Shown here piece after piece: positions 28,278 through 54,926 of a DNA stretch of 64,000 nt. This DNA comes from Lutimonas saemankumensis (GTDB lineage: Bacteria > Bacteroidota > Bacteroidia > Flavobacteriales > Flavobacteriaceae), in assembly GCF_020171465.1 (NCBI RefSeq), contig NZ_JAIUZR010000003.1:434001-498000 (forward strand). The letters run 5' to 3'. A program made the position numbers and the translations under genes. The notes under the pieces were generated by a model. It worked only from the letters and a program-made list of their open reading frames with translations, was not told where the DNA came from and ran no database searches. The number at the start of each line of letters is the position of its first letter. The first letter of the stretch is position 1.

Positions 28278-28280
28278 TCT

Positions 28281-28456: not shown

Positions 28457-28490
28457 TAGAAGCAAAGTTTTCGGAAGAAAGACTATTGGC

Positions 28491-38182: not shown

Positions 38183-38190
38183 ATGATATC

Positions 38191-38538: not shown

Positions 38539-38574
38539 TCATGGATTCACATTGTATGTGAAAGGAATGTAAAA

Positions 38575-38605
38575 AAAGAGGTTGCCACAAAACAACCTCT
38601 TTTTT
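38575..38605. terminator. Bidirectional intrinsic terminator
   Basis: Perfect arms AAAGAGGTTG (38575-38584) and CAACCTCTTT (38593-38602) around an 8-base loop have A runs before and T runs after, so it works on both strands. It sits between the converging cytochrome-like gene (+) and the tolC gene (-), ending the efflux operon. Confidence 0.9.
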
Positions 38606-38626
38606 AATATGGTATTATTTTTAGAA

Positions 38627-39955: not shown

Positions 39956-42900
39956 TTTCTTCTAATTTTAATTCTTTAACCGCTCTTGTAACTTCTTCTT
40001 TGGAAGCCATTCTTCCGGTGATTAACCATTTAATTCTAACCGTTAAACTATTATTGATCGACAATAGCAGGGGTAACATTAATAAGGTCAGAAATGTGGC
40101 AATCATGATCCCATAGGAAATTGAGATAGCCATTGGCTTTAAAAACTGGGCCTGCCTGCTCTTTTCCAATAAAAGCGGCATCAAACCGGCAACCGTAGTG
40201 AGGGATGTTAAAAATATGGCCCGGAACCTGGATTTTCCGGCCTCATACATGGCGTCATTAAATTTCATTCCCTCCTTGAGATATGAATTGAATTTACCTA
40301 CGAGTACCAAACCATCATTTACCATAATTCCCACCAAGGCAATTATTCCTAACCAAGATAATATGTTGATGGAAAATCCATGGATATAGTGGCCCCAAAC
40401 GATACCGATCAAACTAAATGGTACCATGATCAACAGTAATAAGGGTTGGCTGTAGGATCTAAAGGTAAATGCAATGACACAATAGATTAAAACCAATACG
40501 ATTCCTCCTACACGAGTTGCTGAATTAATGGTTTTAGCTGCTTCCCTGTTTTGTCCTTCAAAACTAGGCTGAACGCTTGGATACTTAGCCAGTATCGCAG
40601 GAAGCACATTGTCTTTTATATCCGTCATCACATCCGTGGCACTCTCCTTGGGATTCGCCATATCCGCTGTAATCTGAATTTCTCTTCTTCCTTCAAGGTG
40701 ATTAATAGCTACATCTCCACGAGCAATGTCATAGGTAGCAATTTCTGAAAAAGGGACCTTATTTCCGGTAGGCGTAGAGATCCACATGTCGTCCAGGTTC
40801 CGAATGGATGACCTGTCTTCTTTTTCATATCGAACCCAAACCTTAATCTCATCCTGACCGCGCTGAAATCTCTGGGCCTGAAAGCCAAAGAAACCGGAAC
40901 GCACCTGATTCATCACCGACTGCAGGGTAAGTCCAAGTATATATGCGTCGTTTTTCAATTTGATACGAACTTCTTTTATCCCAGCCGGATCGGTATCCGC
41001 AACATCTTTAAGAATCGGGTTGGCCATCAAGGCACTTTTGAGTTCAATCTTTGCTGCTTTGAGTTCATCGATATTATTCCCCAACAGGGAGACAGCCACA
41101 GGGCTACCGCCAAAATTCATTCCCGATCCAAATGTCAGGCTCTCAGCACCATAAATCACACCGGCTTTTTCTCGAATAGCATTAGTGATCTCTCCGGAAG
41201 GAAAATCTCTGTATTCACCGGGAAGCAGATTTATAGTGAGGCTGGCATTGCTCGATCCGGGGCCGATCCTTTTTATAATGTTTTCAATTACGGGGGTGTT
41301 TCCTGTTTGTTTCTCAGTATATTCATTTCCTACAATCCAGGCCGCTTCCTCGATACTTGAAATAATCGAATCCGTAATTCTTTCATTTGTCCCCTGGGGC
41401 ATCGCCAGGTTGATATCTACCCGATCACTGGCCATATTTGGAAAAAAGGAAGTCCTGACAACACGACTTGAAATCCCTCCAATAGAGAAAATCAGCATGG
41501 CAAAAGGGATGGCAAGACCCAGGAACCTGTTCTTTAGAAAGAACTTTAAGTAAGGACCATAAATCCTGTCTCTACAGAATACCAAAAACTGATCCGCTTT
41601 TACGTTGATTTGATTGAATATATAAAAAAGTCCTGAAGTTGGTTTTTTACGGTTTCTTACCAAAGCCTTGGAATGAGCTATATGCGCCGGAAGAATGATC
41701 AAGGCTTCTACCAGCGAAACAGCTAGGGTCAGAATTACAACAGTCGATACTTCCTTAAAGAAATCCCCTATACCTCCATCCAAAAAGAAGAATATGGAAA
41801 AAGCGAGCATCGTTGTCAAAATAGCTGACATAATGGGAGGGATCACTTCTAAAGTCCCGTCTATTGCTGCTCTAACTGGAGATTTCCCTTTTTCATAATG
41901 ATGATAAATATTTTCGCCAATTACAATTCCGTCATCAACGAGAATTCCAATAACAATAATCATCCCAAATAATGACAATACATTTATGGTAACACCCAGG
42001 TTTGCCGCAAATATGAACATTCCCAAAAAGGCTATGGGTAATCCGGCAGCTACCCAAAATGCCAAACGTACATTTAAAAACAAGGATAAAAACAAAAGGA
42101 CCAGCAGAATACCTACAAAGGCATTTTCTGTCAATAAATCTGTTCTTTGTTTTAAAACAATTGATCGGTCACTCGCTACATTGAGCTGAACATTATCGTG
42201 GGTTTTGTTAAATTTCTCTATGTAAATATTAATCGCATCTGCCGAGGCGATCATGTCTTCGCTGTTGGTGTTGTTTACCTGTATACTAATGGCAACCTCA
42301 TCATTGAAAAATAGTCGGTCCGGGTTTTCGTTCCATCGATCTCTCACCGTTGCCACGTCCTTCAGATAGATCACGTTTCCAGATTGGTCCGCTTTGACGA
42401 TCAGGTTATGCAAATCTTCACCGTAATATTGTCTGTTGCGGGCACGAATCAGATAGTCTTCATAATCTGTTTTAATGTTTCCTCCAGATATCAAAAGGTT
42501 GGATCCTTGAACGGCCTGAGCCACATCAGCAAAAGTCAGATCGAAAGCACGAAGATCAATTTCTCTTACGGCTATTTCAATTTCCTCATCCGGAAATCCC
42601 GTTAAAGCAATCTGAGAAATGCCCGGGATGGCCCGTAAATCATTTTCTACGTCTCTGGCATATTTTTTCAAGGTTGTCAAGGGAAGGTCGGTCCCACTAA
42701 CTGTAAAATTGATCGTCGGGGCAATGGCTTCGACTTTCGCAATCACGGGAGGTTCCATTCCAGTAGGAAAGGAAGGCACTCTGTCAACCGCGTTTTTTAC
42801 TTCGGCCAAAACCACGTCTATATCTGAATCTACCACGGTTTCCACACTGATGCTGGCCGAATTCTCCCGAGATACTGAGGTCACTCGATCAATACCTACA

Positions 42901-43124
42901 ATGCCTTTTAAATTGTCTTCAATTTTGAGCACAACCCCTTCTTCCATTTCCTGTGGAGAGGCACCGGGATATACAACAGAGATATTGATAAATCTTGAAT
43001 CGGTCAAAGGGAAAAATGATGATTTCATCGAGAATATCCCAAGGATACCATAGAAAATTACAGCAAGGATTATCACATTTACTGCAACGTGGTACTTAAT
43101 AAAATAGGAAATAACTTTTTTCAT
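39942..43124 (-). CDS. RND efflux transporter, HAE1/AcrB-like
   Basis: Inner-membrane proton-driven pump of 1060 residues, with twelve helices and two large periplasmic loops in the usual AcrB pattern. Visible marks: first helix VAVNVIILAVIFYGILGIF, PGASPQEMEEGV, helix 4 region GMIIVIGILVDDGIVIGENIYHHYEKG (part; conserved acidic pair), second half PFAMLIFSIGG, and helix 10-11 GIIALVGIMVNDGLVLVGKFN and SLTTVAGLMPLL. It belongs with the adaptor just upstream and TolC downstream. The substrate is unknown; MarR control suggests small aromatic or toxic compounds. Confidence 0.94.
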   Translation of the reverse strand: MKKVISYFIKYHVAVNVIILAVIFYGILGIFSMKSSFFPLTDSRFINISVVYPGASPQEMEEGVVLKIEDNLKGIVGIDRVTSVSRENSASISVETVVDSDIDVVLAEVKNAVDRVPSFPTGMEPPVIAKVEAIAPTINFTVSGTDLPLTTLKKYARDVENDLRAIPGISQIALTGFPDEEIEIAVREIDLRAFDLTFADVAQAVQGSNLLISGGNIKTDYEDYLIRARNRQYYGEDLHNLIVKADQSGNVIYLKDVATVRDRWNENPDRLFFNDEVAISIQVNNTNSEDMIASADAINIYIEKFNKTHDNVQLNVASDRSIVLKQRTDLLTENAFVGILLVLLFLSLFLNVRLAFWVAAGLPIAFLGMFIFAANLGVTINVLSLFGMIIVIGILVDDGIVIGENIYHHYEKGKSPVRAAIDGTLEVIPPIMSAILTTMLAFSIFFFLDGGIGDFFKEVSTVVILTLAVSLVEALIILPAHIAHSKALVRNRKKPTSGLFYIFNQINVKADQFLVFCRDRIYGPYLKFFLKNRFLGLAIPFAMLIFSIGGISSRVVRTSFFPNMASDRVDINLAMPQGTNERITDSIISSIEEAAWIVGNEYTEKQTGNTPVIENIIKRIGPGSSNASLTINLLPGEYRDFPSGEITNAIREKAGVIYGAESLTFGSGMNFGGSPVAVSLLGNNIDELKAAKIELKSALMANPILKDVADTDPAGIKEVRIKLKNDAYILGLTLQSVMNQVRSGFFGFQAQRFQRGQDEIKVWVRYEKEDRSSIRNLDDMWISTPTGNKVPFSEIATYDIARGDVAINHLEGRREIQITADMANPKESATDVMTDIKDNVLPAILAKYPSVQPSFEGQNREAAKTINSATRVGGIVLVLIYCVIAFTFRSYSQPLLLLIMVPFSLIGIVWGHYIHGFSINILSWLGIIALVGIMVNDGLVLVGKFNSYLKEGMKFNDAMYEAGKSRFRAIFLTSLTTVAGLMPLLLEKSRQAQFLKPMAISISYGIMIATFLTLLMLPLLLSINNSLTVRIKWLITGRMASKEEVTRAVKELKLEENENK

Positions 43125-43142
43125 GATCTGCTATGGAGCTTA

Positions 43143-44264
43143 TTATTGTTTAGGATCAGAACCATAAATTGAAACTTTCATACCGGGATAAGCACCAGGA
43201 ACTGATCTGCTCAATACATTGGTCCCATCTGCCAATCCTTTAATGACTACTGTTTTATCCGTAAAATAGACTGGGTTTACGTTTACGAGGTCAATAATAC
43301 TGTCTTTGAACACATAAACACTTTCGTTGTTTACCAGAAGCTTTCGCTCCATTTCAAAAGCATTTTCTTCTGCTTTGGCCACTAAGTGGGCTTCCAGATA
43401 AATGCCTTCTTTAAGATCCTTTCCTTCGAGCTGAATATAAGCCTTTACAGTTTGTGATGTTTGATCCACACGTCCGTTCACACGTGAAATCTTTCCTTTC
43501 CAGGTTTGATCGGTGTCCCTGCTTGTAACATCAACTGAATTTCCTTTCTGTAATAAGTCGATATACTTGGCATTTACCGCAACTTCCATTTCATATATCT
43601 TGGGATTGATGAATTCACCTAATTTTTGGCCTGAACGGATCAAGGAACCCGGATTGACCATTGCATCTGTTAAAATTCCGTCATATGGTGCCCTGATGGT
43701 ATATTTTGTCAACCTCACTTCCATATTTTTAACATTATAATACGTGGTGTAAATGTTTCTCCCGGAAATAAAGAACTTCTCCTTTTCTGAACTTATTTCG
43801 GGAAGCGTCGGAGTAGGCTTGTCAAAATCAAAATCTCTTAAATACTGTTCCCATTTTTCATATTCTTCCGGAAAATCAAGTCGTATATCGGGCATGATTG
43901 ACGTTATTGAATTGTAAAGGTTACTTTTTTGTGCCTGTAGATTTGCGTAGTGCTCCTCACTGTTAATTTTTAAAATCACTTCTCCTTTTCTGTATGAATT
44001 CCCGGGTCTGAATTCTTTTGCCGTCGGCTGAAGAACCCCCTGAACTTCGGAATAGATCTCGATCTTATTTTTGGCTACCAAATTTCCATTTGCTGTAATT
44101 GTAATGGGAATTGTACTGTTTTTCACCTCTTCGACAAAAACTGTTTTAACGATTTTAACCGGTGCCTTATCGGGTTTCTTATTTAAAATGCCCATAACAT
44201 TTACCAGCCAAAATGCCAAGGCAATCAATAAAATTCCAAGTACTATATTTATATATTTTCTCAT
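43143..44264 (-). CDS. RND periplasmic adaptor (HlyD/AcrA family)
   Basis: Membrane fusion protein of 373 residues. One N-terminal helix (about 5-24, without a lipid Cys) is followed by a barrel-sandwich/lipoyl half (VAKNKIEIYSEVQGVL, FRPGNSYRKGEVILKINSEEHYAN), a helical hairpin (about 110-175), the second lipoyl half YTIRAPYDGILTDAMVNPGSLIRSGQ, and a beta-barrel domain. It links the RND pump with TolC. It starts 8 bases after marR and precedes the pump gene by 18 bases. Confidence 0.92.
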   Translation of the reverse strand: MRKYINIVLGILLIALAFWLVNVMGILNKKPDKAPVKIVKTVFVEEVKNSTIPITITANGNLVAKNKIEIYSEVQGVLQPTAKEFRPGNSYRKGEVILKINSEEHYANLQAQKSNLYNSITSIMPDIRLDFPEEYEKWEQYLRDFDFDKPTPTLPEISSEKEKFFISGRNIYTTYYNVKNMEVRLTKYTIRAPYDGILTDAMVNPGSLIRSGQKLGEFINPKIYEMEVAVNAKYIDLLQKGNSVDVTSRDTDQTWKGKISRVNGRVDQTSQTVKAYIQLEGKDLKEGIYLEAHLVAKAEENAFEMERKLLVNNESVYVFKDSIIDLVNVNPVYFTDKTVVIKGLADGTNVLSRSVPGAYPGMKVSIYGSDPKQ

Positions 44265-44271
44265 TGTGTGA

Positions 44272-44733
44272 TTACTTTATTGAGGTTTTTTTATTAATGT
44301 TTTCTTGAATTTTTTTTAGCACATTTTGTGCGACCTGAAGATCTTCTTCAGAAATATTTTTTTGAAGTTCTTGAATGATGTTCATGAAATAAGGTAGGGA
44401 CGTGTCCCATACGATTCTCCCTTTATCGGTAAGAAACACATTGTTTATTCGCATATCTTCAGAGGAAACACTTCGCGATACAAGTCCTTTCTTTTCCATC
44501 GTCTGAATTAGTCTTGTCAAAGCTGTTTTGGACCTGTTCGTGATAAAAGCTAAATCGTTCTGTTTCCTTCCATCCTGCTCATGCAGATGTTTTAAAACAA
44601 TAAACTGTTCTTTGCTGATGTTCACCCCATGGCTTTTCATCACATCAGAAATGTAATAGTCCATGAACTTGGCTGTCTTGCCAATCCACGGGATGAGGGT
44701 AACTGTATCGGTATCTTGAAAAAGTTTTGACAA
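44272..44733 (-). CDS. MarR-family transcriptional regulator
   Basis: Winged-helix regulator of 153 residues and first gene of the efflux operon. Marks: SKEQFIVLKHLHEQDGRKQNDLAFITNRSKTALTRLIQTMEKKG (HTH about residues 55-85, shown in part), then the wing with RSVSSEDMRINNVFLTDKG (D-R and T-G conserved). The start is TTG 44733, since the first ATG is at codon 24 inside helix 1. A perfect palindrome at 44772-44789 overlaps its promoter and is the likely operator, so it probably represses the operon until it binds a small ligand. Confidence 0.92.
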   Translation of the reverse strand: MSKLFQDTDTVTLIPWIGKTAKFMDYYISDVMKSHGVNISKEQFIVLKHLHEQDGRKQNDLAFITNRSKTALTRLIQTMEKKGLVSRSVSSEDMRINNVFLTDKGRIVWDTSLPYFMNIIQELQKNISEEDLQVAQNVLKKIQENINKKTSIK

Positions 44734-44748
44734 ATCCTAAAATTTTGC

Positions 44749-44789
44749 CAAAAATACAAAAAGAAGAAAATTAGTTGCACATGCAACTA
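44749..44789 (-). promoter_or_regulatory. MarR operator and promoter of the efflux operon
   Basis: A perfect inverted repeat with 8-bp arms TAGTTGCA / TGCAACTA and a CA spacer lies at 44772-44789. The -7 box TATTTTTG (minus strand) is at 44749-44756, so transcription should begin near 44743. The palindrome covers about -29 to -46, where a bound MarR dimer would block RNA polymerase. The sequence is of the known MarR type (TTGCAnnTGCAA). Confidence 0.75.
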
Positions 44790-44861
44790 TGTTAATGTTT
44801 TCATAAAAAAGTTGAACAATATGAATATCAGTAAGTTAAATCTTAAAGCCTATAAAAGACA

Positions 44862-44890
44862 AAAAAAACCATTGAAATTTATTCAATGGT
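44862..44890 (-). terminator. Terminator of the cytochrome operon
   Basis: On the minus strand the arms ACCATTGAA (44882-44890 side) and TTCAATGGT (44868-44876 side) enclose a 5-base loop and run into eight T. It lies 26 bases past the stop of the last cytochrome gene. Confidence 0.9.
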
Positions 44891-44915
44891 CTTTTCATAG
44901 TAACAGATTCAATAT

Positions 44916-45314
44916 TTATTCCGCCAGTGTTCTCATGTAATTGACAATCAGCCACCTGTCTTCATCGTCAGGCATTTTCTTTGTGTATTCCGGCATGTCA
45001 TCACGACCAAAAGAAGTTTTGTAAAATAACTCACCGTCCGTCTGGGCCTGAAACTCTTCCGAAGAGAAGTCTCCCAGATCTCCTTCAACTTCATTGGCTT
45101 TTTTTCCATCACCATATCCTTCCTTGCCATGGCAGGACTGGCAATGTTTTGCATAAAGTGATTTACCAATTTTAAGATCTACTTCCGGATCAGTCGGGTT
45201 TTTCATGTTGACATATTTTTCAGGCACAACCCATTCATCCTGAATTATTCCAGTGAATGAAATAAATGCGAAGGATAAAATGCTTAAAACTATCAACTGT
45301 TTAAATTTTTTCAT
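44916..45314 (-). CDS. Soluble-type monohaem cytochrome c
   Basis: Exported class I cytochrome c of 132 residues, last gene of the respiratory operon. A signal peptide or anchor covers about residues 5-24. The haem motif CQSCH is at 58-62, preceded by GKSLYAKH and followed by GKEGYGDG. The Met ligand is probably in FGRDDMPEYTKKM, and the C-terminal helix is DEDRWLIVNYMRTLA. It could accept electrons from the Fe-S/NrfD pair (like ActE of alternative complex III) and pass them on to an oxidase. That partner is inferred. Confidence 0.9.
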   Translation of the reverse strand: MKKFKQLIVLSILSFAFISFTGIIQDEWVVPEKYVNMKNPTDPEVDLKIGKSLYAKHCQSCHGKEGYGDGKKANEVEGDLGDFSSEEFQAQTDGELFYKTSFGRDDMPEYTKKMPDDEDRWLIVNYMRTLAE

Positions 45315-45325
45315 GTCTGATTAAA

Positions 45326-46198
45326 TTAAGATTTAAAGATTCTGACTAAGTTAATAAATAAATAAATAAAAAGGCCCCAAACAACAATAATAAATGAGTA
45401 GGTTACCCCCAAAAGGAAATAAGGTGTTTTACCCCGCGGTGACCACATGGTTCTGCTGTCATAGGTCGATTCGTCAACAATAACAGTGCCTACTGGGGCG
45501 GTAATTTTCGAAATCACTGTTCCGTAATCATCGCTTTCCGATAGCACCACTTCAATATTCAAGTTGCCATCCACACCCGGAATGCCATCTTCGATTTCAA
45601 CCTCAATTTGCCCCATTTCATCTGTTTCATAGTAATCCTCTCCAATAGTCAAAGGCCTGAATATTCTTTCAACTCTTACTTTTAATGGCATTTCCATTAA
45701 GGCACTGTCTGATATTTTTTCTACCAACGTGGCCCTTATGTAATTCAAACTGTCTTTTTGTATCCATTCTGCGGTTAAATCAACATCCTTGAAGTCGACT
45801 TCTCTCGATGCTTTTCTAAAACTTTCATTTCCATCAAAACCAACCAATATGTGGTACATACCTAAGCTGTCGGGTTTAAGATCGTTGAAGTTTTTAAAGA
45901 TATATTTGCTCAACCCTGCAGAATTGGTTCTTGTAACGCCAAGTTCAACCTCTTCTTCATCAACTAATTGGTAAATGGTCAGGTCAAGATCGGCAAGCTC
46001 AACCGTTTTTCTGTCTATACGTGCCGAAGCCTTGATATTAAGGTAGTGTTCTCCGCCAACAACTTTTACATAATCTGCATTAATTCTGGCTCTGTCCTTT
46101 TTTTTAGTTTGAGCACTGAGTTCATTAAGATTGAAGCAGAATCCTGATAAAAGGATCAGTATTGACAAGCCCGTTGTTGTAATTTTAAAATTTCTCAT
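45326..46198 (-). CDS. Signal-anchored beta-sandwich protein of the cytochrome operon
   Basis: Unrecognised protein of 290 residues. A signal peptide covers about 1-29 (to ELSAQT). Two or more beta-sandwich domains follow (about 40-145 and 150-245), the first with a CNA-B/transthyretin-like pattern (VELGVTRTNSAGLSKYIF). One membrane helix near the C-terminus (about 259-284, FLLGVTYSFIIVVWGLFIYLFI) leaves a short basic tail inside. It has no haem or Fe-S motif. Its ATG overlaps the NrfD stop by 4 bases, so it is made together with NrfD and probably forms a structural periplasmic part of the complex. Confidence 0.72.
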   Translation of the reverse strand: MRNFKITTTGLSILILLSGFCFNLNELSAQTKKKDRARINADYVKVVGGEHYLNIKASARIDRKTVELADLDLTIYQLVDEEEVELGVTRTNSAGLSKYIFKNFNDLKPDSLGMYHILVGFDGNESFRKASREVDFKDVDLTAEWIQKDSLNYIRATLVEKISDSALMEMPLKVRVERIFRPLTIGEDYYETDEMGQIEVEIEDGIPGVDGNLNIEVVLSESDDYGTVISKITAPVGTVIVDESTYDSRTMWSPRGKTPYFLLGVTYSFIIVVWGLFIYLFINLVRIFKS

Positions 46199-47511
46199 GA
46201 CTTACTCTTTTTATCATTATCCTCAATCCCACTTTCATCAATGGATCTTTGAATACCTACAACAGGAAGGTATCTGACCAGTAAAGTTAGTATCAACAAT
46301 GCAGTCGCCAGGTTACTACCGGTTATGATCCATTCATGAAGACTAGGAAAATAGTCTCTCCACGATTCCGGGACACCCTGAATTGGCAGATAGGGATGAA
46401 GCAGTGTCGGAGTAACAATGATGTAACGTTTCCACCAGGAAGCCAGAACAACAAGCATGGCAACCCAAAACATGACAACGGGTGACCTTCCTTTTTTAAA
46501 CATCAAAATAATAACCGGAACAATTAACCCTCCAATGGTTACAAACCAAAACAGGGTAGAATAGTGGCCGGTGAACAACGTTTCGAGATGAATCTGTTCA
46601 TTCACTGTTGAAGCATAAGCCGGCATCAGGTATTCATTGATATTGAAATAGAGATATACCAGACAGGCCAGGGCCAGGAACTTACCCATTTTGTCAAAAT
46701 GAAAATCTGTGATATAATCTTCTAAGCCTTTTACTTTTCTGATCACATAAATGGTAACAACGAGGGTCCCAACTCCTGCTACAAAAGCACCCGAGGTAAA
46801 ATAGGGTCCAAAATTAGTACTGTTCCATCCAATTCTGTAGGTTGAAGAAAACAACCAGGCATCTATGGTTTGGAGGATCAGTCCTAAAGGAAGTACTAAA
46901 ACCGCAATGATCCTGATCGATTTTTGCTGGATTAGTTTTTGGGCTTTGGTCCCTTTCCAGTTAAGCGAAAGTTTTCCATATAATTTGCTTAGCCCTGGTT
47001 TACTTTTGCTATAGTACTTTTTGAGTATGGCCAGGTCCGGTAGCAGAGGAAAATATAACAGGAAGAATATCGCAATCAAATAACTTGGTATGATAATCAC
47101 ATCCCAGGTAATCGGTGACTGAAATCTGGCGTAGATAATAGTATACAAAGCTCTGTCTGGCCGGCCTAAGTCAATAATAATGGTTATACCAGCCATAATA
47201 ATTGCAGCGAGCGATATGATTTCAGCAATTCGGACCAAAGGGGTTCTCCAGGTATTCCCGGTCAACCTTAAGATAGCAACTGTTGCGGCCCCTACAAAAC
47301 TCGTAGCGATAAAGAAAACAAAGTTTGAAATGTAGATTCCCCAAAGGGCATAGTCATTCAAATTTGTAACCTGTAAGCCTGATCTCACCTGATCAACATA
47401 GGCAATAAATCCGGCAATAACCATAAATACGAGCAATCCAACCCAGATTTTTTCAGCCTTTGTAAACTTCTTTGGGGCAAGATCCTTAATAAACTGTTCA
47501 CGTGATTTCAT
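46195..47511 (-). CDS. NrfD/PsrC-family quinol-interacting membrane subunit
   Basis: Integral membrane subunit of 438 residues with about ten helices, the long form seen in ActC of alternative complex III rather than the eight-helix PsrC form. Marks: NDYALWGIYISNFVFFIATSFVGAATV (helix 2 region, in part), IIDLGRPDRALYTII, the SPITWDVIIIPSYL helix, and LHEWIITGSNLATALLIL near the end. Such subunits exchange electrons between menaquinol and an Fe-S partner. The Fe-S gene is 2 bases upstream. No proton-pathway claim can be made here. Confidence 0.9.
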   Translation of the reverse strand: MKSREQFIKDLAPKKFTKAEKIWVGLLVFMVIAGFIAYVDQVRSGLQVTNLNDYALWGIYISNFVFFIATSFVGAATVAILRLTGNTWRTPLVRIAEIISLAAIIMAGITIIIDLGRPDRALYTIIYARFQSPITWDVIIIPSYLIAIFFLLYFPLLPDLAILKKYYSKSKPGLSKLYGKLSLNWKGTKAQKLIQQKSIRIIAVLVLPLGLILQTIDAWLFSSTYRIGWNSTNFGPYFTSGAFVAGVGTLVVTIYVIRKVKGLEDYITDFHFDKMGKFLALACLVYLYFNINEYLMPAYASTVNEQIHLETLFTGHYSTLFWFVTIGGLIVPVIILMFKKGRSPVVMFWVAMLVVLASWWKRYIIVTPTLLHPYLPIQGVPESWRDYFPSLHEWIITGSNLATALLILTLLVRYLPVVGIQRSIDESGIEDNDKKSKS

Positions 47512-47513
47512 AA

Positions 47514-48485
47514 TTATTCAGGTTTAGCAACAGATTCATACTCCATATAGTTTTCAAGTCCGTCCTCAAAGTCAACCAGTCGGTCAGTTGGCGGCAGGTA
47601 ATACACGCTTGGCTCGGTACCAAGAGATTCCATAAATCGGTAACCTGCTTTATCTTCAAGTAATTGACTTAATCGAAGCGATTCTTCTCCATTCGTCACC
47701 GTATCCTCATACTTGTCTCCAAAATAGAATACCCCGTTAGGGCATGCGGTAACACAATGAGGTAATTCATTATTTTTAATGGCATGCGGGCAAAAATCAC
47801 ATTTATCTACAGTTCCCATTTTACTTGGCATTCCGGCGTGTTCCGGTGTTGGGTTATGGTGAGACATATCCATGTCAACATAGATTTCTCCCTGATCGGG
47901 TTCTTTCCAGTTAAATACTCTAATAGAATAAGGACAGGCCGCCATACAAAAACGGCAACCTATGCAACGTTCATTGTCAATAAGTACCAGTCCGTCTCTT
48001 CTTTTAAACGTGGCATCTACAGGGCAAACCGTAACGCAGGCAGGTTGATCACAATGCTGACAAGTAACAGGCATCCAGTAGGGTGCCGTATCTTTTGACT
48101 CCTGCATATTGTATATCTTGATCCAGGCGTTGTCTCCTGTTACATAATGATGTTTGTTACATGCACTTTGACAGGCCAGCGCATTTTTACATTTGGCCAG
48201 ATCGACAACCATTACGAATTTACGATTAGGCATCCCTTCCCTGACATTGTATTTTTCGTCATGATCCGAAGAATGCTCCATCGGAGCAACATCTGATGTG
48301 TCCACTTGTATAATATCGCCGTTGGTATTCATCAGTTCCATAGTGGAACCTGAATGATGGTTTGTATTTGCATTAAGTTTGGAAGCAACCTTTGATATGC
48401 CAAAACCACTTAAAGCCGTTATAAATCCCAGCTTTAATCCTTTATCCAGAAATTTTCTGCGTGTATTTTTATTCGATTTCCCCAT
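47514..48485 (-). CDS. Four-cluster ferredoxin-type Fe-S subunit with Tat signal
   Basis: DmsB/NrfC/ActB-C-terminal-like electron-transfer subunit of 323 residues. A twin-arginine signal NTRRKFLDKG (residues 7-16) and hydrophobic stretch direct it across the membrane folded. Cysteine groups are at 99/105/109, 142/145/150/154, 174/177/180/184 and 229/232/244/248, that is 15 rather than 16: residue 102, normally the second Cys of group I, is Ala (CKNALACQSAC). One cluster may therefore be [3Fe-4S]. It is coupled to NrfD (2 bases). No molybdopterin subunit is encoded nearby. Confidence 0.9.
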   Translation of the reverse strand: MGKSNKNTRRKFLDKGLKLGFITALSGFGISKVASKLNANTNHHSGSTMELMNTNGDIIQVDTSDVAPMEHSSDHDEKYNVREGMPNRKFVMVVDLAKCKNALACQSACNKHHYVTGDNAWIKIYNMQESKDTAPYWMPVTCQHCDQPACVTVCPVDATFKRRDGLVLIDNERCIGCRFCMAACPYSIRVFNWKEPDQGEIYVDMDMSHHNPTPEHAGMPSKMGTVDKCDFCPHAIKNNELPHCVTACPNGVFYFGDKYEDTVTNGEESLRLSQLLEDKAGYRFMESLGTEPSVYYLPPTDRLVDFEDGLENYMEYESVAKPE

Positions 48486-48502
48486 GATTTAGAACTTTTG
48501 AA

Positions 48503-48751
48503 TTAAAGCTTTTTACCCAGCCAGTTCATAAAACCCTTATTTGATATTTTTTTCTTTAAGACCCTGGCATTTTTAAGACTGCTCTTTTTGACTTTAACCG
48601 GAGTTCCGTCTGGTTTAATCAATATTTCATAAGTTTCATCTTCAACCGTTTCAGATTCTAACACCGCTGCCTTTCCTAGAAAGGGCAGTAGAAAACTACT
48701 GCCCAATATTGGTATGACACTTCTTCTTGTAAATTTATTTTTCTGTCCCAT
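48503..48751 (-). CDS. Small Tat-signal-like protein of the cytochrome operon
   Basis: Unrecognised 82-residue protein. The start ATG at 48751 gives GQKNKFTRRSVIPILGSS, with an RR pair and a hydrophobic stretch very like the Tat leader of the Fe-S subunit that follows (GKSNKNTRRKFLDKG). An earlier TTG at 48757 is less likely. After the leader it has an acidic stretch (ESETVEDETYEI), LIKPDGTPVKVKKSSL and a basic tail ending NWLGKKL. It has no metal motif. It lies 17 bases before the Fe-S gene and could be a small accessory or assembly subunit. Confidence 0.65.
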   Translation of the reverse strand: MGQKNKFTRRSVIPILGSSFLLPFLGKAAVLESETVEDETYEILIKPDGTPVKVKKSSLKNARVLKKKISNKGFMNWLGKKL

Positions 48752-48771
48752 GATCAATAGTTTCTGTGGTT

Positions 48772-49692
48772 CTAGAAATTATAGATCCTTGTGATGTTGA
48801 ATCCTAGGAGTATGTCTCCACTAAAGAAATCATTTTTGTTCCACATATAATTCTCCTGAGGAACGATACCTGAATAGTTCGAGATGAATAATTGAAAGGC
48901 ATGTCCTGAGGTACCAAATTCAAATCCCAAGCTTAAACCTGGATGATTTGTGTATCGCGTTTCTTTAATCAATTCACCCTCTGAATTTGGTTTTGAACTC
49001 GTATCAAATTGCGTGAGAGGTTGACTATAATCAACGAGAATTGCTGTATTCGGGGTTATTTTGTACCTGCCTCCCAACGAAAAAGCCCATCGATCATTTT
49101 GCATTCCATCATAAACAGCGTTATAATGCGAGACACTGGTGGTAAATTGCATTGAAAATTCTGGTGTAAATCTTTTCGCCAGAATCAATTGATGGAAAAA
49201 TGAATAACGATCCTGATGGTAATTAACCGGAGGTACCATGGTTTCGGTTTGCTCCCTTGCATCATAAGCGAAGTCGCCAAAATAACTTAAGTTCACCGGC
49301 ATACTATTGGAACGAGTTTGTCTGAGAATAGCTACTTTGGCATTAACATCGAGGAGCATCTTATTTTTTGTTGCTCCAAATCCTAGAGTTACTCTTTCAT
49401 GGACACCATAGGCCCCTGCTAATCTTATGTTGGCATTGGGTCCATAAATTCCTTGAAGGTCCGACCAGTCACCCATCTTAGCGAATCTGTGTTGCATCTG
49501 AACCTCTAAAGCTCTTGGACTTAGTACAATATTAGTTGGATTATCTACAATGTAGGAGCTCTCAAAAGCTGCTCTTTCGAGTTTTTCTTTTTTCTTTGGA
49601 ATTGTATCCTGTTCTACTTCTTCACTTTCCTGTGCCAATGCTACAAAAGGCATTACCAAAAGAACAAGTAGTATGTATATATATTTTTTCAT
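48772..49692 (-). CDS. DUF5777-type outer-membrane beta-barrel protein
   Basis: Predicted barrel of 306 residues. A signal peptide covers 1-20 (to VALAQE), then comes a short acidic/lysine-rich linker (EEVEQDTIPKKKEKLER). A series of amphipathic strands follows, including LEVQMQHRFAKMGDW, RVTLGFGATKNKML, FSMQFTTSVSHYN, WAFSLGGRYKI and the closing LLGFNITRIYNF with terminal Phe. The DUF5777 name fits the pattern of barrel proteins found beside cytochrome genes in Bacteroidota; the role is unknown. Within this operon it may be an outer-membrane anchor or conduit for the haem lipoproteins. Confidence 0.78.
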   Translation of the reverse strand: MKKYIYILLVLLVMPFVALAQESEEVEQDTIPKKKEKLERAAFESSYIVDNPTNIVLSPRALEVQMQHRFAKMGDWSDLQGIYGPNANIRLAGAYGVHERVTLGFGATKNKMLLDVNAKVAILRQTRSNSMPVNLSYFGDFAYDAREQTETMVPPVNYHQDRYSFFHQLILAKRFTPEFSMQFTTSVSHYNAVYDGMQNDRWAFSLGGRYKITPNTAILVDYSQPLTQFDTSSKPNSEGELIKETRYTNHPGLSLGFEFGTSGHAFQLFISNYSGIVPQENYMWNKNDFFSGDILLGFNITRIYNF

Positions 49693-49709
49693 TTTTTTGC
49701 TCTTAAAGG

Positions 49710-50087
49710 TTAATTATCTAAGGCTCCTTGATCGATCCAAGCCTTTACTAACTCAGTCTTGGATGCCGGCCATCGTTCTGTAGGTGTTGGCATTGGAGAA
49801 ACACCGTCGGCATGGATTAGTGACAAGTATAAGATGCTGTTTTCAGAATCAAACTCTTCAACAAAACCGTTTAAAAGACTTTCATAGGAATTCTCAGGTG
49901 TAAGATCAGGAGGTATTGCTCCGTTGTGGCAACTGACACATTGACCTTCCCAGAGCGGCATAATATCATTTGAATATGAAACTACATCGGGGATATCCAC
50001 TACATCAGGAGGAAATTCGTCATAATAACATGATCCCACAAATAACCCCATAGTTATCAATGCCATTATTATTTTTAAATTTTTCAT
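49710..50087 (-). CDS. Monohaem c-type cytochrome lipoprotein
   Basis: Lipoprotein of 125 residues from ATG 50087. A longer frame to 50162 would translate through a terminator hairpin and spoil the signal peptide. Lipid Cys is at 20 (LFVGSC), followed by an acidic region YYDEFPPDVVD. The haem motif CVSCH is at 50-54 in the context NDIMPLWEGQCVSCH. The C-terminus has a possible Met ligand in GVSPMPTPT and a final helix ELVKAWIDQGA. It resembles the lone lipoprotein at 38191-38538. It lies 17 bases before the barrel gene. Confidence 0.85.
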   Translation of the reverse strand: MKNLKIIMALITMGLFVGSCYYDEFPPDVVDIPDVVSYSNDIMPLWEGQCVSCHNGAIPPDLTPENSYESLLNGFVEEFDSENSILYLSLIHADGVSPMPTPTERWPASKTELVKAWIDQGALDN

Positions 50088-50122
50088 GTTTGAAATTTTA
50101 AATGAAACTTTTAAACATTTAG

Positions 50123-50154
50123 AAAAAATGCAGATAATGGTATCTGCATTTTTT
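50123..50154 (-). terminator. Terminator between the hexahaem gene and the rest of its operon
   Basis: Perfect arms of 14 bases (AAAAAATGCAGATA and its complement at 50141-50154) with a 4-base loop end in six T on the minus strand. It begins 8 bases after the hexahaem gene stop and 36 bases before the next ATG. Partial read-through would make the hexahaem protein in excess over the other subunits. Confidence 0.85.
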
Positions 50155-50162
50155 CTTTCCAT

Positions 50163-51281
50163 TTAATTACCTTGTAAAGCTTCTATAGAGTTTCTTACTA
50201 AAGCCTTTGCGTATTTAGGGTTGTGAAGACCTTTACTGTGGTCATAATAGATCATACGGTAGTTCCAAAGGGCCTGGGCTGGAATTAAATCGTATGTTCC
50301 GCCAACCGGGCTCACACTTCCGTCATCATTTAATTTGAGTAAGCCTTCGGCAAGGAGAAGATCCTCTAATGTTTTTATATCCTCAACGAGGAAATCTCCG
50401 CTTGGAATACCACTTGTATGACATTGGACACATGAAGTTTCTGTTGGTATGGTACTGTGCAGGCCATCAATATTACCTGTGCTCTCTCCCATATGGCAGG
50501 AAGTACAACTTGAACCTCTTCTATGGGCCGCAGATGCTGGCTCTTCATAAGGCAAGGAACCTGCCACTTCTGCTCCTTGAATTCCTTCAAGAAGACTTGA
50601 CTGTGCTCCGTAATGTGGTCCAAAGCGACTGTTTACTGCGATCTTACCATCTTCATTAGGAAGCGGGAATACGGATCTTGGCTGGTGGCAAGTCGCACAT
50701 GTGTGACTGGTCATTCCGTCTTTACCATAGTCTATTGTAACCGAAGCATCTGCCAATAGGGTTACAGGAGCAACTACTCTAAGAGCATAATCGTAACCAT
50801 CATTTTCAAAGTCGAAACTCGTATGATTTCCATGACAGGTGTTACAAGTGATTGTTTGGGTACCCGGATAAATCGGACCAACACCGTCTCCAGTTAGGGC
50901 AGTTCCTTTTTCCGTCCAGTCTATATAGCCGTCACTGGTATGGCAAGCTGTACATGTGCTGGTACCGAAATTGGGACCAAAACCTCGGTTACCGTATCGT
51001 GAAAGTGGTACGAAAGGAGCATCCGGCCCCCCTCCAGGTTCTTGATGATCCATGTTTTCATTGTAATGAGCGGAGAACAGATAAGAAGCGTGGACTTCTT
51101 CTGCAGTCGACACATTGTGACATGCTGCGCATTCAGCTGTTCCGCTGGCTCCGTCTGCTCCGTCCATACCGTCCATTCCGTCTTTACCGTCTTCCCCGGG
51201 AATAGGGTCTGTTGTACACTGGACAAGTAACATACTTGTCGATACAATTAATAAGAGATTTATAAGCTTGATAATTTTCAT
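50163..51281 (-). CDS. Hexahaem c-type cytochrome lipoprotein
   Basis: Multihaem protein of 372 residues, first gene of the respiratory operon. Lipid Cys is at 22 (LLVQC), followed by a collagen-like Gly-Xaa-Asp run (about 29-48: GEDGKDGMDGMDGADG). Six CxxCH motifs begin at Cys 51, 110, 146, 195, 259 and 284. The C-terminus (LIPAQALWNYRMIYYDHSKG, then HNPKYAKALV) resembles the end of NrfA/HAO-type multihaem reductases. There is no CxxCK motif, so it is not a classical nitrite reductase. It is probably surface- or outer-membrane-anchored and may be an electron carrier or terminal reductase. Confidence 0.88.
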   Translation of the reverse strand: MKIIKLINLLLIVSTSMLLVQCTTDPIPGEDGKDGMDGMDGADGASGTAECAACHNVSTAEEVHASYLFSAHYNENMDHQEPGGGPDAPFVPLSRYGNRGFGPNFGTSTCTACHTSDGYIDWTEKGTALTGDGVGPIYPGTQTITCNTCHGNHTSFDFENDGYDYALRVVAPVTLLADASVTIDYGKDGMTSHTCATCHQPRSVFPLPNEDGKIAVNSRFGPHYGAQSSLLEGIQGAEVAGSLPYEEPASAAHRRGSSCTSCHMGESTGNIDGLHSTIPTETSCVQCHTSGIPSGDFLVEDIKTLEDLLLAEGLLKLNDDGSVSPVGGTYDLIPAQALWNYRMIYYDHSKGLHNPKYAKALVRNSIEALQGN

Positions 51282-51593
51282 GGTATTTGAAATTTACGTG
51301 TTAAAAAAGTGTTAAGTAAATTTAAAATCAAACCAACTTATAAATCATGATAATTGTCAGTTTTAAAAATATTTAAAACACTGAAAATCAGTGGATAAAA
51401 TTCAAAATATGATAAATGTCATTTTAACTATGTGACTTTAGTAACTAAAAATGGAAAAATTTTTGACCAAAATGAGTGCAAAATTTGAATCATTAATGAT
51501 TCCAAAAAATAAGTGGTTGATTCTCAAATTTTTTAAAATTTCATGAATGATTTTTTATTAAATTTGCATTCGATATCACACAATTTGCTTTGA
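51282..51593. promoter_or_regulatory. Divergent control region of cytochrome operon and ccsBA
   Basis: This 312-base non-coding space separates two divergent operons. A perfect 16-bp palindrome GAATCATTAATGATTC lies at 51487-51502, flanked by partly symmetric AAATTTGAATC and GATTCTCAAATTT. A -7 box TAAATTTG at 51559-51566 would start the ccsBA transcript about 22 bases before its ATG. I found no TAnnTTTG match for the hexahaem side, where a different sigma factor or an activator may act. The rest is very AT-rich and shows nothing else. Confidence 0.5.
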
Positions 51594-54500
51594 ATGAAAA
51601 AAGTTATAAGTTATTTGTCTTCAATGCGGTTTACCGCGGTTTTGTTTTTCCTTTTTGCGGCCGCTATGGCCATTTCAACTTTTATTGAGAATGACTACGG
51701 CACTCAAACGGCCAAGGCGCTTGTTTACAATGCCTGGTGGTTCGAACTGATCATGTTGCTTTTTATGGTCAATTTTATTGGAAACATCAAAAAATATGAA
51801 CTTCTTCAAAAAAAGAAACTTCCTGTTTTAATGTTTCACCTTTCCTTTGTTTTAATTATTCTTGGTGCGGGCATTACCAGGTACGTCAGTTATGAGGGTA
51901 TTATGCCCATCTTTGAAGGTGAGACTACCAATAAAATTTTGTCGGATAAAGCCTATATCGATATACACATTGATGATGATAAGGAGCAGAAAGCACCCAT
52001 GTATGAGCATTATTTATTTGCCTCAACTTACGGTAACAGCAGTAATTTCATTTATAACACCTCGAGATTTCTGAACTGGATACGTGGTGGTAATGATTTT
52101 TCAATAAAGACCGATTTCAAAGGTGAGCCGGTAGAGATCAATTATGTGGATTATATCCCGAACGCCTATGAGGAGTTTCAACGGGATGAAAATGGCCAGG
52201 ATTACCTTAAAATTGTTGAATCCGGTGGTGACGGAAGGCACGAACACTACATCAGGTCAGGACAAACTCTGAATTTGCATAACTCTCTTTTCTCTTTTGA
52301 GAACCAAACCAAAGGAGCAATAAATATTTTTACGGTTAACGATACCTTAAGAATTCAGGCCCCTGCGAACGGTGAGTTTATGATCATGGCGAGTCAGACA
52401 CAAGGCGCCGTTGTTCAAGATTCCATCCAGACATTTAACCTTAGGTCCTTATATCGAATAGGAGGGAATCAATTTGTTGTTCCCGAACCAGCCATCAAGG
52501 GAAAAATGGCCCTGGTTTCAGGGAACAAGGATGAGCATCCAAATGATATGGTAGAAGTTGAGGTGATTACAAAAGAAACCAGCCAAAAAATTAAATTGTT
52601 TGGAAATTCTTTGCAGGTCTCTCGTCCTATCGTTTTTTCTCAGGACGGGTTGAATTTTAGATTGCGTTATGGATCAAAACAATTTCAGATACCTTTTTCA
52701 GTAAAATTGCGAGATTTTCAGTTGGAGCGCTATCCGGGTTCCATGAGTCCAAAATCCTATGCAAGCGAGATCACGGTTGTTGATGGTGAGGATGTTTTTG
52801 ACTTTAGAATATTTATGAATCATGTGCTGGATCATAAAGGATACAGATTCTTTCAGTCCAGTTATAATGATCAGGGAGAAGTGGAGCAGACCTTCTTATC
52901 TGTTAATTACGATACCGCAGGAACATGGACCTCTTATGTAGGGTATTTCTTCTTATTTCTTGGCCTGATTCTTTCACTTATGACAAAAGACACGCGATTT
53001 GGTTCCTTAAGAAAGAATCTGAAAAAATTAAAGAAAAAGAAGGCAAAGCTGGTTATGATCTTTCTTTTAGTCTCGGGAGTTGCCTTTTCACAAAACGGGC
53101 AAAGTTCTTCTCAGGCAGAATTACAGGAGCAAGAACAAGAACATAACCATGATCATGAGCACGTGCAGGAACCGGTCAATTCTGATGAATCGCAGGACGC
53201 TCACGCTGCACATTCAGCAGCCGACCATCAATCGCATGAACAACAATACAGGATCATTGATTCTATCATTGAAGTTCAGACCAGTACCAAGGAGCATTCC
53301 AGAGAATTTGGTAAACTGGTTATTCAGGATGAAGGAGGCAGAATGAAGCCGTTAAACACCTTTGCATCGGAATTATTGAGAAAGGTTAGTAAAAAGGACA
53401 CCTACAAAAATATGGATGCCAATCAGGTGGTTGTTTCCATGTTGACCAACCCCAGAGCCTGGTATTTTGTACCCTTTATTTATATAAAAAGAGAGAACAC
53501 TAAGGTCAGAGACCTGATAGGTATTCCTCATGAACAGAAGTACGCTCGGTTTTCAGATCTTTTTACAGAAAGGGGAGAGTATAAGTTAACAGAAGAAGTT
53601 GGGAAGGCTCATAAGAAAAAGATCAAGGATAAATATGAGGAGAGTATCTTAAATATTGATGGAAGAGCCAACCTGTTGTTTGGCGCCCTTGGAGGATCCA
53701 TATTTAAATTTTTCCCTTTACCAAATGACGAGAATAACAAATGGTTTTCATTCATTGAAGTCAGGCATTCCGGCTTCAAGGGAGAGGATTCTCTTTACGT
53801 GAGCAATATTATACCGTTATATGCCGGCGAAGTGGTAGAGGCTGCCAAGACCAAAGATTATTCAACTGCAGAAGAGTATCTTGAAAGTATTCATAAATAT
53901 CAGCAGCGATACGGTTCAGAGGTTATGCCTTCAGAACGAAAAGTTGAGCTTGAACTTTTTTATAATGAGTACGATATTTTTAAGTCGCTGTTTGCTTATT
54001 ATATGTATGCCAGTTTACTTATGTTCATCGTGGTGATTGTTAACATTTTTAATGATAAAAAACTCATCCGTATTCTGATAAAGGTATGTACAGGAATCAT
54101 TCTGTTGTTGTTTGTCTATCATACCGTAGGATTAGGCATCCGATGGTATATTTCTGGCCATGCTCCCTGGAGTAACGGTTATGAATCAATGATCTATGTG
54201 TCCTGGGCAACAATGTTCTTTGGAGTTATCTTTGGTAAAAGGTCACCACTGACCCTTGCAGCAACAACATTTGTAACCTCGATGTTGCTAATGGTAGCGC
54301 ACTGGAACTGGATGGACCCGTCCATTGGAAATCTTGTGCCCGTGCTGGATTCGTATTGGTTGATGGTACACGTAGCTATTATTGTTGCAAGTTATGGGCC
54401 ATTTACCATTGGCATGGTGCTGGGAATGCTGGCATTGATCCTCTACATATTCACCACAAAGAAGAACAAGAAAAAGATGAACCTCGCCATTAATGAAATC

Positions 54501-54926
54501 ACAACCATTAATGAAATGTCGTTAACCATTGGTTTGGTTTTACTGACCATAGGAAATTTCCTTGGAGGAATCTGGGCCAATGAAAGCTGGGGTCGATATT
54601 GGGGATGGGACCCAAAGGAAACCTGGGCCCTGATCAGTATCATGGTCTACTCATTTGTTCTGCATATGAGGCTGATCCCGGGATTGAAAAGTAAATACAC
54701 CTTTAATATGGTTGCTGTATTCGCGTTTGCCTCGATTTTGATGACCTATTTAGGTGTGAATCATTTACTATCCGGTTTGCATTCTTATGCTGCTGGTGAG
54801 TCGGCTGCGGTTCCAAACCAGATCTGGGGATGGTTACTTATATCTTTGATTTTAAGTATCTTAGCATACTTTAAATTCAACAGGTTTTACAAAAAAAAGG
54901 CAAAGAAAAAAACTAAGAAAAAATGA
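51594..54926 (+). CDS. ccsBA: Fused ResB-CcsA cytochrome c maturation protein
   Basis: System II haem exporter and cytochrome c synthase, 1110 residues. The ResB half (about 1-480) has N-terminal helices, a large periplasmic domain and a return helix. A second signal-like helix (about 483-500) is followed by a His- and acid-rich linker (about 515-555, HNHDHEHVQE then HAAHSAADHQSHE). The CcsA half from about 790 has GHAPWSNGYESM, LMVHVAIIVASYG and the haem-handling motif WGRYWGWDPKETWALI (Trp at about 999). It would mature the cytochromes encoded divergently. The glutathione peroxidase gene overlaps its stop by 4 bases. Confidence 0.93.
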   Translation: MKKVISYLSSMRFTAVLFFLFAAAMAISTFIENDYGTQTAKALVYNAWWFELIMLLFMVNFIGNIKKYELLQKKKLPVLMFHLSFVLIILGAGITRYVSYEGIMPIFEGETTNKILSDKAYIDIHIDDDKEQKAPMYEHYLFASTYGNSSNFIYNTSRFLNWIRGGNDFSIKTDFKGEPVEINYVDYIPNAYEEFQRDENGQDYLKIVESGGDGRHEHYIRSGQTLNLHNSLFSFENQTKGAINIFTVNDTLRIQAPANGEFMIMASQTQGAVVQDSIQTFNLRSLYRIGGNQFVVPEPAIKGKMALVSGNKDEHPNDMVEVEVITKETSQKIKLFGNSLQVSRPIVFSQDGLNFRLRYGSKQFQIPFSVKLRDFQLERYPGSMSPKSYASEITVVDGEDVFDFRIFMNHVLDHKGYRFFQSSYNDQGEVEQTFLSVNYDTAGTWTSYVGYFFLFLGLILSLMTKDTRFGSLRKNLKKLKKKKAKLVMIFLLVSGVAFSQNGQSSSQAELQEQEQEHNHDHEHVQEPVNSDESQDAHAAHSAADHQSHEQQYRIIDSIIEVQTSTKEHSREFGKLVIQDEGGRMKPLNTFASELLRKVSKKDTYKNMDANQVVVSMLTNPRAWYFVPFIYIKRENTKVRDLIGIPHEQKYARFSDLFTERGEYKLTEEVGKAHKKKIKDKYEESILNIDGRANLLFGALGGSIFKFFPLPNDENNKWFSFIEVRHSGFKGEDSLYVSNIIPLYAGEVVEAAKTKDYSTAEEYLESIHKYQQRYGSEVMPSERKVELELFYNEYDIFKSLFAYYMYASLLMFIVVIVNIFNDKKLIRILIKVCTGIILLLFVYHTVGLGIRWYISGHAPWSNGYESMIYVSWATMFFGVIFGKRSPLTLAATTFVTSMLLMVAHWNWMDPSIGNLVPVLDSYWLMVHVAIIVASYGPFTIGMVLGMLALILYIFTTKKNKKKMNLAINEITTINEMSLTIGLVLLTIGNFLGGIWANESWGRYWGWDPKETWALISIMVYSFVLHMRLIPGLKSKYTFNMVAVFAFASILMTYLGVNHLLSGLHSYAAGESAAVPNQIWGWLLISLILSILAYFKFNRFYKKKAKKKTKKK

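Follow-up and report, generated by a model that had tools for sequence, protein, structure and literature searches.

A candidate menaquinol dehydrogenase encoded with a DUF5777 outer-membrane barrel and exchangeable haem lipoproteins in Lutimonas saemankumensis

Eight co-directional genes and a conserved seven-gene core

We analysed a 64,000-nucleotide window of the Lutimonas saemankumensis genome (contig NZ_JAIUZR010000003.1, positions 434,001 to 498,000; coordinates below are those of the window), in which an initial annotation had proposed a possibly undescribed eight-gene electron-transfer module linking quinone to the outer membrane. All eight open reading frames (ORFs) lie on the (−) strand at 44916–51281. 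The first encodes HexC (50163–51281, 372 amino acids (aa)), a hexahaem lipoprotein with six CxxCH motifs and a lipid-anchored Cys followed by TTD, which we call the head of the module. The seven genes behind it are the core. They encode MonoC (49710–50090, 126 aa), a monohaem cytochrome c lipoprotein with one CxxCH and the residues CYYDE at its lipid Cys; a DUF5777 outer-membrane beta-barrel (48772–49692, 306 aa; PF19089 in Pfam, E 1.2e-66); a small RR-leader protein (48503–48757, 84 aa); an iron–sulphur (Fe-S) subunit with an RR leader of the twin-arginine translocation (Tat) type, four cluster motifs and several 4Fe-4S Pfam matches (47514–48485, 323 aa); an NrfD/ActC-type membrane quinone subunit (46195–47511, 438 aa; PF03916 in Pfam, E 5.4e-25); an anchored beta-sandwich protein with a signal, beta domains and a C-terminal helix and no Pfam or NCBIfam match (45326–46198, 290 aa); and CytC, a class I monohaem cytochrome c with an export signal and one CxxCH (44916–45314, 132 aa; PF13442, E 6.6e-11; PF00034, E 2.2e-9). 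The gene arrangement, the haem counts of HexC and MonoC and the identities of the barrel and of NrfD all agreed with the initial annotation.

From MonoC to CytC the seven genes are spaced by −4 to +17 bases, and HexC ends 72 bases upstream of the MonoC ORF, counted to the Met at 50090. This Met, and not position 50162, is most likely the monoC start because the lipoprotein signal begins there and the relatives align from it. Between head and core is a terminator-like 16-bp hairpin (50121–50156, (−) strand, z −5.2), which our scan found on the (+) strand and whose near-palindromic stem folds on the (−) strand too. A second terminator-like hairpin, with a T-rich tail, follows CytC (44862–44896, (−) strand, minimum free energy about −16).

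The beta-sandwich protein was matched in 9 of 120 family genomes and NrfD at 47% identity or above in 7 of 296 phylum genomes, the own genome being counted both times. NrfD matches at E up to 1e-20 came from 219 of the 296, and the contexts of weaker matches that we inspected (L068, L069, L070 and L072) were alternative complex III-like. All six other genomes with an NrfD at or above 47% carry the gene set, in exactly this order at L062 and L064. A further scan yielded at least 585 relatives; we retained the best 80 loci by NrfD similarity, many of which end at contig edges. Profiles recognised NrfD in 80 of these loci, the Fe-S subunit in 79, the beta-sandwich protein in 78, CytC in 76, DUF5777 in 71, MonoC in 66 and the small RR protein in 59. 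Neighbouring core genes were adjacent in 97–100% of cases, with 75% for the barrel and the small RR protein: MonoC–DUF5777 66/66, DUF5777–small RR 53/71, small RR–Fe-S 59/59, Fe-S–NrfD 78/79, NrfD–beta-sandwich 78/80 and beta-sandwich–CytC 76/78. The exact seven-gene order was present in 48 of the 64 loci containing both ends. This adjacency is more than chance, and the conserved order that the initial annotation had led us to look for is there. In many loci a tandem second Fe-S–NrfD–beta-sandwich–CytC set is present, and L115 has a third.

The 80 loci were also searched by BLASTP with the own genome's NapA, PsrA, molybdenum (Mo) part of ActB, Mo9A, ActA, ActD and ActF. Matches arose in 46 of them; among ORFs not labelled NrfD, Fe-S, HexC or CytC there was no match to a Mo subunit, and an ActA-like ORF in L087 was the sole match. 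Across these loci, then, the core genes are co-conserved and a constant Mo catalytic subunit is absent, two points on which the proposal of a separate module had been made to depend.

Several observations accompany this set. Metal-efflux and NorBC-like genes stand near some relatives, with no consistent link to the module; NorC/NorB-like genes lie near the module copy at L063:14160–15906 (COX1 Pfam match checked for L063 only) and, at L217, near an EB_dh–MonoC–DUF5777 set without NrfD. One locus, L137, comes from a record titled as a Bifidobacterium breve metagenome-assembled genome and carries this flavobacterial module; the record is probably a mislabelled bin.

The inner-membrane half resembles alternative complex III without its molybdopterin-like subunit

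A profile of 16 NrfD sequences compared with the PDB at E up to 0.01 matched only ActC and ActF chains, the best being 6f0k_C (E 5.4e-69), and BLASTP within the own genome gave ActC (E 3e-46) ahead of the Nap-cluster NrfD (E 3e-19). In a tree, module NrfD and ActC fell opposite the Psr-, Mo9- and Nap-type proteins with 97% support for the split, and a third paralogue clade lay nearer to ActC; the branches are long and DsrP is represented by one DsrP-like row without a reference sequence, so that the details of this tree are unsure. Hydropathy counts in relatives gave 8–10 helices. Residues Asp114, Ser132 and Asp137 of the module NrfD align with His139, Ser164 and Asp169 of Rhodothermus marinus ActC, which together with Asp253 are quinone-site residues in the available portion of a published account, where Asp at the first of these positions is the form given for DsrP, QrcD and others (PMC8076601).

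The Fe-S subunit had been described as having four cluster groups. The four motifs are present, and the conserved Cys number 15, not 16: an alignment of 100 sequences, with tandem copies among them, keeps all 15 in every sequence, so that three [4Fe-4S] clusters and one [3Fe-4S] cluster would be expected. The missing Cys belongs to motif I in the module and Nap Fe-S proteins and to motif III in the own ActB. HHalign shows homology between the small RR protein and the stretch that extends the Fe-S subunit at its N terminus (probability 95.6%, E 1.1e-8). An AlphaFold2 model of the beta-sandwich protein (predicted local distance difference test score (pLDDT) 90.0) has beta domains and a C-terminal helix. 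A PDB search with its alignment profile gave no match at E 1 or below. For the model, Foldseek returned only general immunoglobulin/fibronectin type III-like folds, with query template modelling (TM) scores of at most 0.31 among the 50 rows listed. In two relatives NrfD2 and a beta-sandwich part (bSand2) are fused in a single ORF (L054:2069–3988 and L056:7849–9783), which argues that the beta-sandwich protein is a physical subunit of the NrfD complex.

Comparison with known NrfD-containing systems placed this half of the module near several and inside none. It shares with alternative complex III an NrfD that is closest to ActC, a class I cytochrome c and a four-motif Fe-S protein, and differs in that the operon lacks the molybdopterin-like domain of ActB, ActA and ActD. 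As for an ActF-type second subunit, the window operon has one NrfD-type gene, and the tandem NrfD2 of relatives follows its own Fe-S gene; our filter could not separate ActF from NrfD. HexC scored 19.6 against a QrcA cutoff of 180, and the operon has no Mo-type, QrcB-like ORF. Membership of alternative complex III or Qrc was rejected, there being no Mo-like subunit in the operon or in the 80 relatives. The best NCBIfam models were DsrO for the Fe-S subunit (180.4 bits) and DsrP for NrfD (107.4 bits), and the Asp at the quinone position of transmembrane helix 2 is a further likeness to DsrMKJOP; neither score reaches its curated cutoff (200 for DsrO, 350 for DsrP), DsrM, DsrK and DsrJ are absent from the eight genes, and this assignment was rejected on the scores.

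Closer in kind are quinol dehydrogenases linked to metal respiration, SirCD of Shewanella and Cbc4/CbcSTU of Geobacter: the excerpts available of one account state that SirCD can stand in for CymA with ferric citrate and that cbcT expression rises on insoluble metal oxides (PMC11434368). Both combine an Fe-S and a membrane subunit (of NrfD/PsrC type in SirD) without Mo and pass quinol electrons to cytochromes. They differ from the module in that those excerpts name no barrel, monohaem lipoprotein, beta-sandwich protein or exchangeable head for them, a comparison made by description. The module has the Mo-free Fe-S/NrfD pair typical of SirCD, MccCD and Cbc4 and three of the four quinone-site residues. 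Because such pairs feeding metal or surface respiration are known, its inner-membrane half is of a known kind.

The host genome (3.58 Mb) has five PF03916 genes including the module's NrfD, which alone has no Mo-type neighbour. The other four are spread over four loci: L008, an alternative complex III cluster with oxidase-like genes behind it; L007, a Nap cluster that has an Fe-S/NrfD pair of its own; L006, a Psr/Phs-type cluster; and L009 (Mo9), which encodes another Mo enzyme with a fused Fe-S/NrfD protein. These cluster names were assigned by eye from ORF lists, partly backed by model scores. As alternative complex III has a separate cluster here, the module is additional to it. The likely quinol dehydrogenase of the Nap cluster (L007:9627–11946) pairs an NrfD of DsrP type, whose 412.3 bits exceed the cutoff of 350, with a DsrO-like Fe-S protein, whose 193.5 bits fall short of the cutoff of 200.

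The outer-membrane half: a narrow barrel, small redox lipoproteins and exchangeable heads

An AlphaFold2 model of the DUF5777 protein (pLDDT 89.6) has 12 long strands. Its Foldseek matches include FapF (query TM 0.50), NanC (0.48), Tsx (0.46) and OmpG (0.40), of which FapF, NanC and Tsx are solved barrels of comparable size; ranked by E-value, a porin comes first, at a TM of 0.28. Like MtrCAB/Pcc and Cyc2, the module encodes an outer-membrane barrel together with cytochromes c. It differs in the 12 predicted strands, judged against the sizes of the Mtr and Cyc2 barrels, in a monohaem protein that is separate and in having no multihaem plug. An MtrAB-like haem wire through DUF5777 was rejected on the 12 strands of the model, and the idea that the barrel serves as a conduit of the Mtr/Pcc type had to be dropped, the modelled barrel being too narrow.

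To place the barrel in a wider setting, we looked at DUF5777 outside the module. PF19089 matched in 62 of 148 phylum genomes sampled and in 0 of 14 control genomes. In an initial set of 30 DUF5777 loci, taken with flanks of 1.5 kb, 23 had a MonoC-like gene and 18 had YceI. From 83 listed places, 7 of them module loci, we took 40 of the other 76 with about 4 kb on each side; these are mostly better-scoring, overlap the first 30, and include several from related genera that are not independent. MonoC-like genes were present in 32, Rieske genes in 4, cupredoxin genes in 2 and DOMON genes in 4, with at least one of these in 36 (the Rieske, cupredoxin, DOMON and type IX tail profiles were built from one to three seeds). 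The four loci with none are L189, L212, L213 and L214, the last having a barrel that the profile did not recognise. None of the MonoC-like, Rieske, cupredoxin, DOMON or YceI genes was found in 20 control tiles, which omit window positions 38001–55000 (the module and a lone MonoC-like gene at 38191) and of which several are centred on respiratory genes. That lone gene (38191–38538) encodes another monohaem lipoprotein, whose start, CSSDSDDDP, is strongly acidic; its homologue in a congener (L053) adjoins YceI-like and DUF5777 genes. Type IX secretion tails occur on Pfam-checked cupredoxin (L158, identical with L188) and DOMON (L165, identical with L194) proteins, and, by profile, on a further three DUF5777 neighbours (L191, L197 and L201), which suggests that these cupredoxin and DOMON genes encode secreted redox partners.

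YceI genes were present in 33 of the 40 non-module loci versus 1 of the 80 module loci (L140), as if the quinol dehydrogenase took the place of YceI. Two loci outside the 80 are exceptions: in L067 a YceI lipoprotein occupies the head position, and the congener L053 has a separate YceI–DUF5777–MonoC set about 7 kb away.

The head upstream of MonoC was HexC alone in 25 of the 80 loci, HexC with an EB_dh protein in 9, EB_dh alone in 15 and a dihaem lipoprotein of the class I cytochrome type in 13. The remaining 18 loci lacked a recognised head; in 14 of them DUF5777 is missing or is preceded by fewer than three ORFs. The EB_dh heads belong to PF09459 and carry the haem motif CxxxCH, and the head families differ in Pfam; MonoC itself has CxxxxCH instead of CxxCH in L065–L067. 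With at least three alternative heads, HexC was given up as a fixed part of the module. The hexahaem lipoprotein of the initial annotation is present here, as one of several heads, and it is the seven genes behind it that form the conserved unit. Hairpins with z below −2 followed the head in 20 of 26 HexC gaps, 23 of 23 EB_dh gaps and 2 of 11 dihaem gaps (two more dihaem gaps were too short); they were also found before the tandem set, after CytC, in 21 of 22 cases, between DUF5777 and the Fe-S gene in 8 of 14 and between HexC and EB_dh in 6 of 9. Through the hairpin between them, head and core may be expressed at different levels.

In an alignment of 35 HexC sequences, six His residues beyond the haem motifs are conserved, at positions 72 (34/35) and 153, 223, 253, 275 and 353 (35/35 each). 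Six conserved spare His for six haems make all-bis-His haems likely, and by its sequence HexC is likely suited to electron transfer rather than catalysis. The HexC profile matched an octahaem nitrite reductase in the PDB (8rv0, E 1.2e-12) and also NrfA. In the alignment the CxxCK haem of 8rv0 becomes CxxCH in HexC, the Tyr of CAQCHVEY is matched by Arg in Q-P-R, and a consensus Tyr stands where 8rv0 has the His of QHPE, three features of 8rv0 that we take to be catalytic. With these positions replaced and six spare His conserved, we rejected HexC as an ordinary nitrite reductase.

The lipoproteins have a common residue pattern behind the lipid Cys. The tag C-T-[HSTN]-D was found in 24 of 31 HexC and 17 of 20 EB_dh sequences with the Cys assigned by a wider lipobox pattern; with a narrower one, 10 of the 13 dihaem heads had CTHD. 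Asp occupied position +4 in 65 of 68 MonoC, 25 of 31 HexC, 19 of 20 EB_dh and 11 of 13 dihaem proteins. The narrower pattern missed most HexC. The wider one, used for the main counts, gave no Cys for 5 of 36 HexC and 4 of 24 EB_dh and placed it wrongly in at least one sequence of each. Among 62 control lipoprotein-like ORFs from the same loci, which unlike the module proteins were selected for a K or R close to the start and some of which may be spurious, Asp at +4 and C-T-[HSTN]-D were each found in 0 of 62, and Asp or Glu at +4 in 6. Surface export signals of Bacteroidetes lipoproteins have acidic residues mostly at +4 and +5, in the accessible text of one source (PMC5080379). Since Asp at +4 resembles this signal, exposure of the module lipoproteins at the cell surface is plausible; since the fit is partial, they may instead face the periplasm.

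A broader but tentative reading is that DUF5777 and a small redox lipoprotein could be the core of a widespread Bacteroidota outer-membrane electron-transfer system, distinct from Mtr/Pcc and Cyc2, with interchangeable input and outer partners and heads sorted by the common lipid tag. Under this speculative scheme inputs might be YceI in most loci and here a dedicated ActC-type menaquinol dehydrogenase, and outer partners might be hexahaem, EB_dh or dihaem proteins or type IX-secreted cupredoxin or DOMON proteins.

A proposed electron route and its alternatives

In the model we propose, with a probability of about 0.6, the module works as a menaquinol dehydrogenase and supplies electrons to redox lipoproteins of the outer membrane, which may be exposed at the surface. 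NrfD would oxidise menaquinol at the periplasmic face, in a complex of which the beta-sandwich protein would be a subunit, and electrons would pass through the Fe-S clusters to CytC, which would cross the periplasm. CytC may deliver them to MonoC docked on the DUF5777 barrel, and MonoC to the head, here HexC, perhaps at the cell surface, and so to an extracellular acceptor. That heads are swapped between loci could be explained if the head decides the redox partner, and YceI, beside the barrel/MonoC pair in other loci, would presumably be an alternative input. Transfer between menaquinol and a surface or periplasmic acceptor, as first suggested, draws support from the quinone-site residues and the shared lipid tag; the fixed role for HexC did not survive, and the barrel does not resemble an Mtr/Pcc conduit. 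The multihaem clusters near the module in a congener and at L150, and SirCD and Cbc4 as precedents, also speak for the proposed route.

A number of observations weigh against this proposal. A 12-strand barrel should be unable to enclose a cytochrome, which leaves the crossing of the outer membrane by electrons without explanation. Asp253 of R. marinus ActC is not kept in the module NrfD, so that three of four quinone positions are kept or conservatively replaced. With the narrower lipobox pattern, at least two acidic residues at +2 to +6 were found in 18 of 18 EB_dh proteins, 12 of 31 MonoC and 2 of 7 HexC. The core is not invariant: L063 lacks CytC in place, CytC sits between DUF5777 and the Fe-S gene in three same-class genomes (L065–L067), a more distant NrfD (L068, 36% identity) sits with Mo and Act-type subunits, and the 80 loci had been chosen for NrfD similarity. 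An 11-haem protein encoded near the module in a congener was unmatched in the own genome in a search run without a positive control. Finally, several carriers of the module are described as aerobes.

The same parts could run in reverse. The lipoproteins would then collect electrons from an external donor, be it a reduced metal, a sulphur compound, an organic compound or a partner cell, and the Fe-S/NrfD complex would reduce menaquinone, like Qrc with periplasmic cytochrome c3. Qrc and Nhc, which have NrfD subunits, take electrons from cytochromes to quinone in the published portion at hand (PMC8076601). The EB_dh heads fall in a family named after a dehydrogenase subunit, and the aerobic carriers would also fit. 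Against this direction, the closest NrfD of solved structure, ActC, belongs to a quinol-oxidising complex, and no gene of the locus points to a donor enzyme; we consider reverse flow rather unlikely.

We regard as improbable a further alternative in which the module is a minimal relative of alternative complex III whose sole task is to supply a terminal oxidase through periplasmic cytochrome c, and the barrel and lipoproteins serve an unrelated purpose. The ActC-type NrfD, a CytC profile that also matches the cytochromes of alternative complex III clusters and the tandem FeS2-NrfD2-bSand2-CytC2 sets without a barrel of their own speak for it. It is opposed by the unbroken MonoC–DUF5777 adjacency, by the redox genes near DUF5777 in 36 of 40 loci elsewhere and by the alternative complex III cluster already in the genome. 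It is very improbable that HexC, with an altered active site, acts as a terminal reductase of the NrfA/octahaem nitrite reductase superfamily and that the rest is an Nrf- or Mcc-like quinol supply for it: the HexC profile matches 8rv0 and NrfA, and NrfCD and MccCD are given as Fe-S/NrfD pairs feeding multihaem reductases in the pages available of PMC8076601, but the replaced catalytic positions, the six spare His that would make all six haems bis-His and the lack of HexC in 28 of 62 loci whose head was recognised stand against it.

Menaquinol oxidation coupled to outer-membrane lipoproteins is thus the reading we prefer. We found no description of the module or of such a route for it in the searchable literature, and the NrfD-containing complexes named in the accessible part of PMC8076601 do not include it. 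The claim that it is undescribed holds to this extent; on the available account of SirCD and Cbc4 (PMC11434368), Mo-free Fe-S/NrfD pairs for such routes are themselves known. 

Sediments commonly harbour Bacteroidota, a phylum not usually listed with those whose members exchange electrons with their surroundings. If the proposal is true, the module offers a testable route for such exchange in this phylum, gives a first role to DUF5777 and to the Pfam-less beta-sandwich subunit, and represents an operon in which a constant inner machine is combined with a swapped outer redox protein.

In the congener (L053, L223) the module is followed by a second CytC gene, a 201-aa gene, an NHL protein and a multihaem cluster. 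The order at L223:1229–10445 is NHL, 11-haem, 4-haem, 358-aa, 9-haem, 652-aa ORF and 10-haem (by CxxCH counts); the 652-aa ORF has no Pfam match, and labelling it a barrel would be a guess. An NHL/multihaem cluster with a similar start lies beside the module at L150:10744–17326. With the 11-haem protein not found in the own genome, we gave up this cluster as part of the module system. The clusters of L223 and L150 look like an undescribed outer-membrane conduit in Flavobacteriaceae.

Upstream of HexC and divergent from it, a ResB–CcsA fusion for cytochrome c maturation (51594–54926, (+) strand; PF01578, E 2.2e-39; PF05140, E 1.5e-21) was excluded from the module. Elsewhere in the window, a cobalamin riboswitch (28270–28466; RF00174, 86.6 bits) precedes a gene at 28452 that resembles a TonB receptor (named by eye), with binding-protein and ABC-type genes nearby on the opposite strand.

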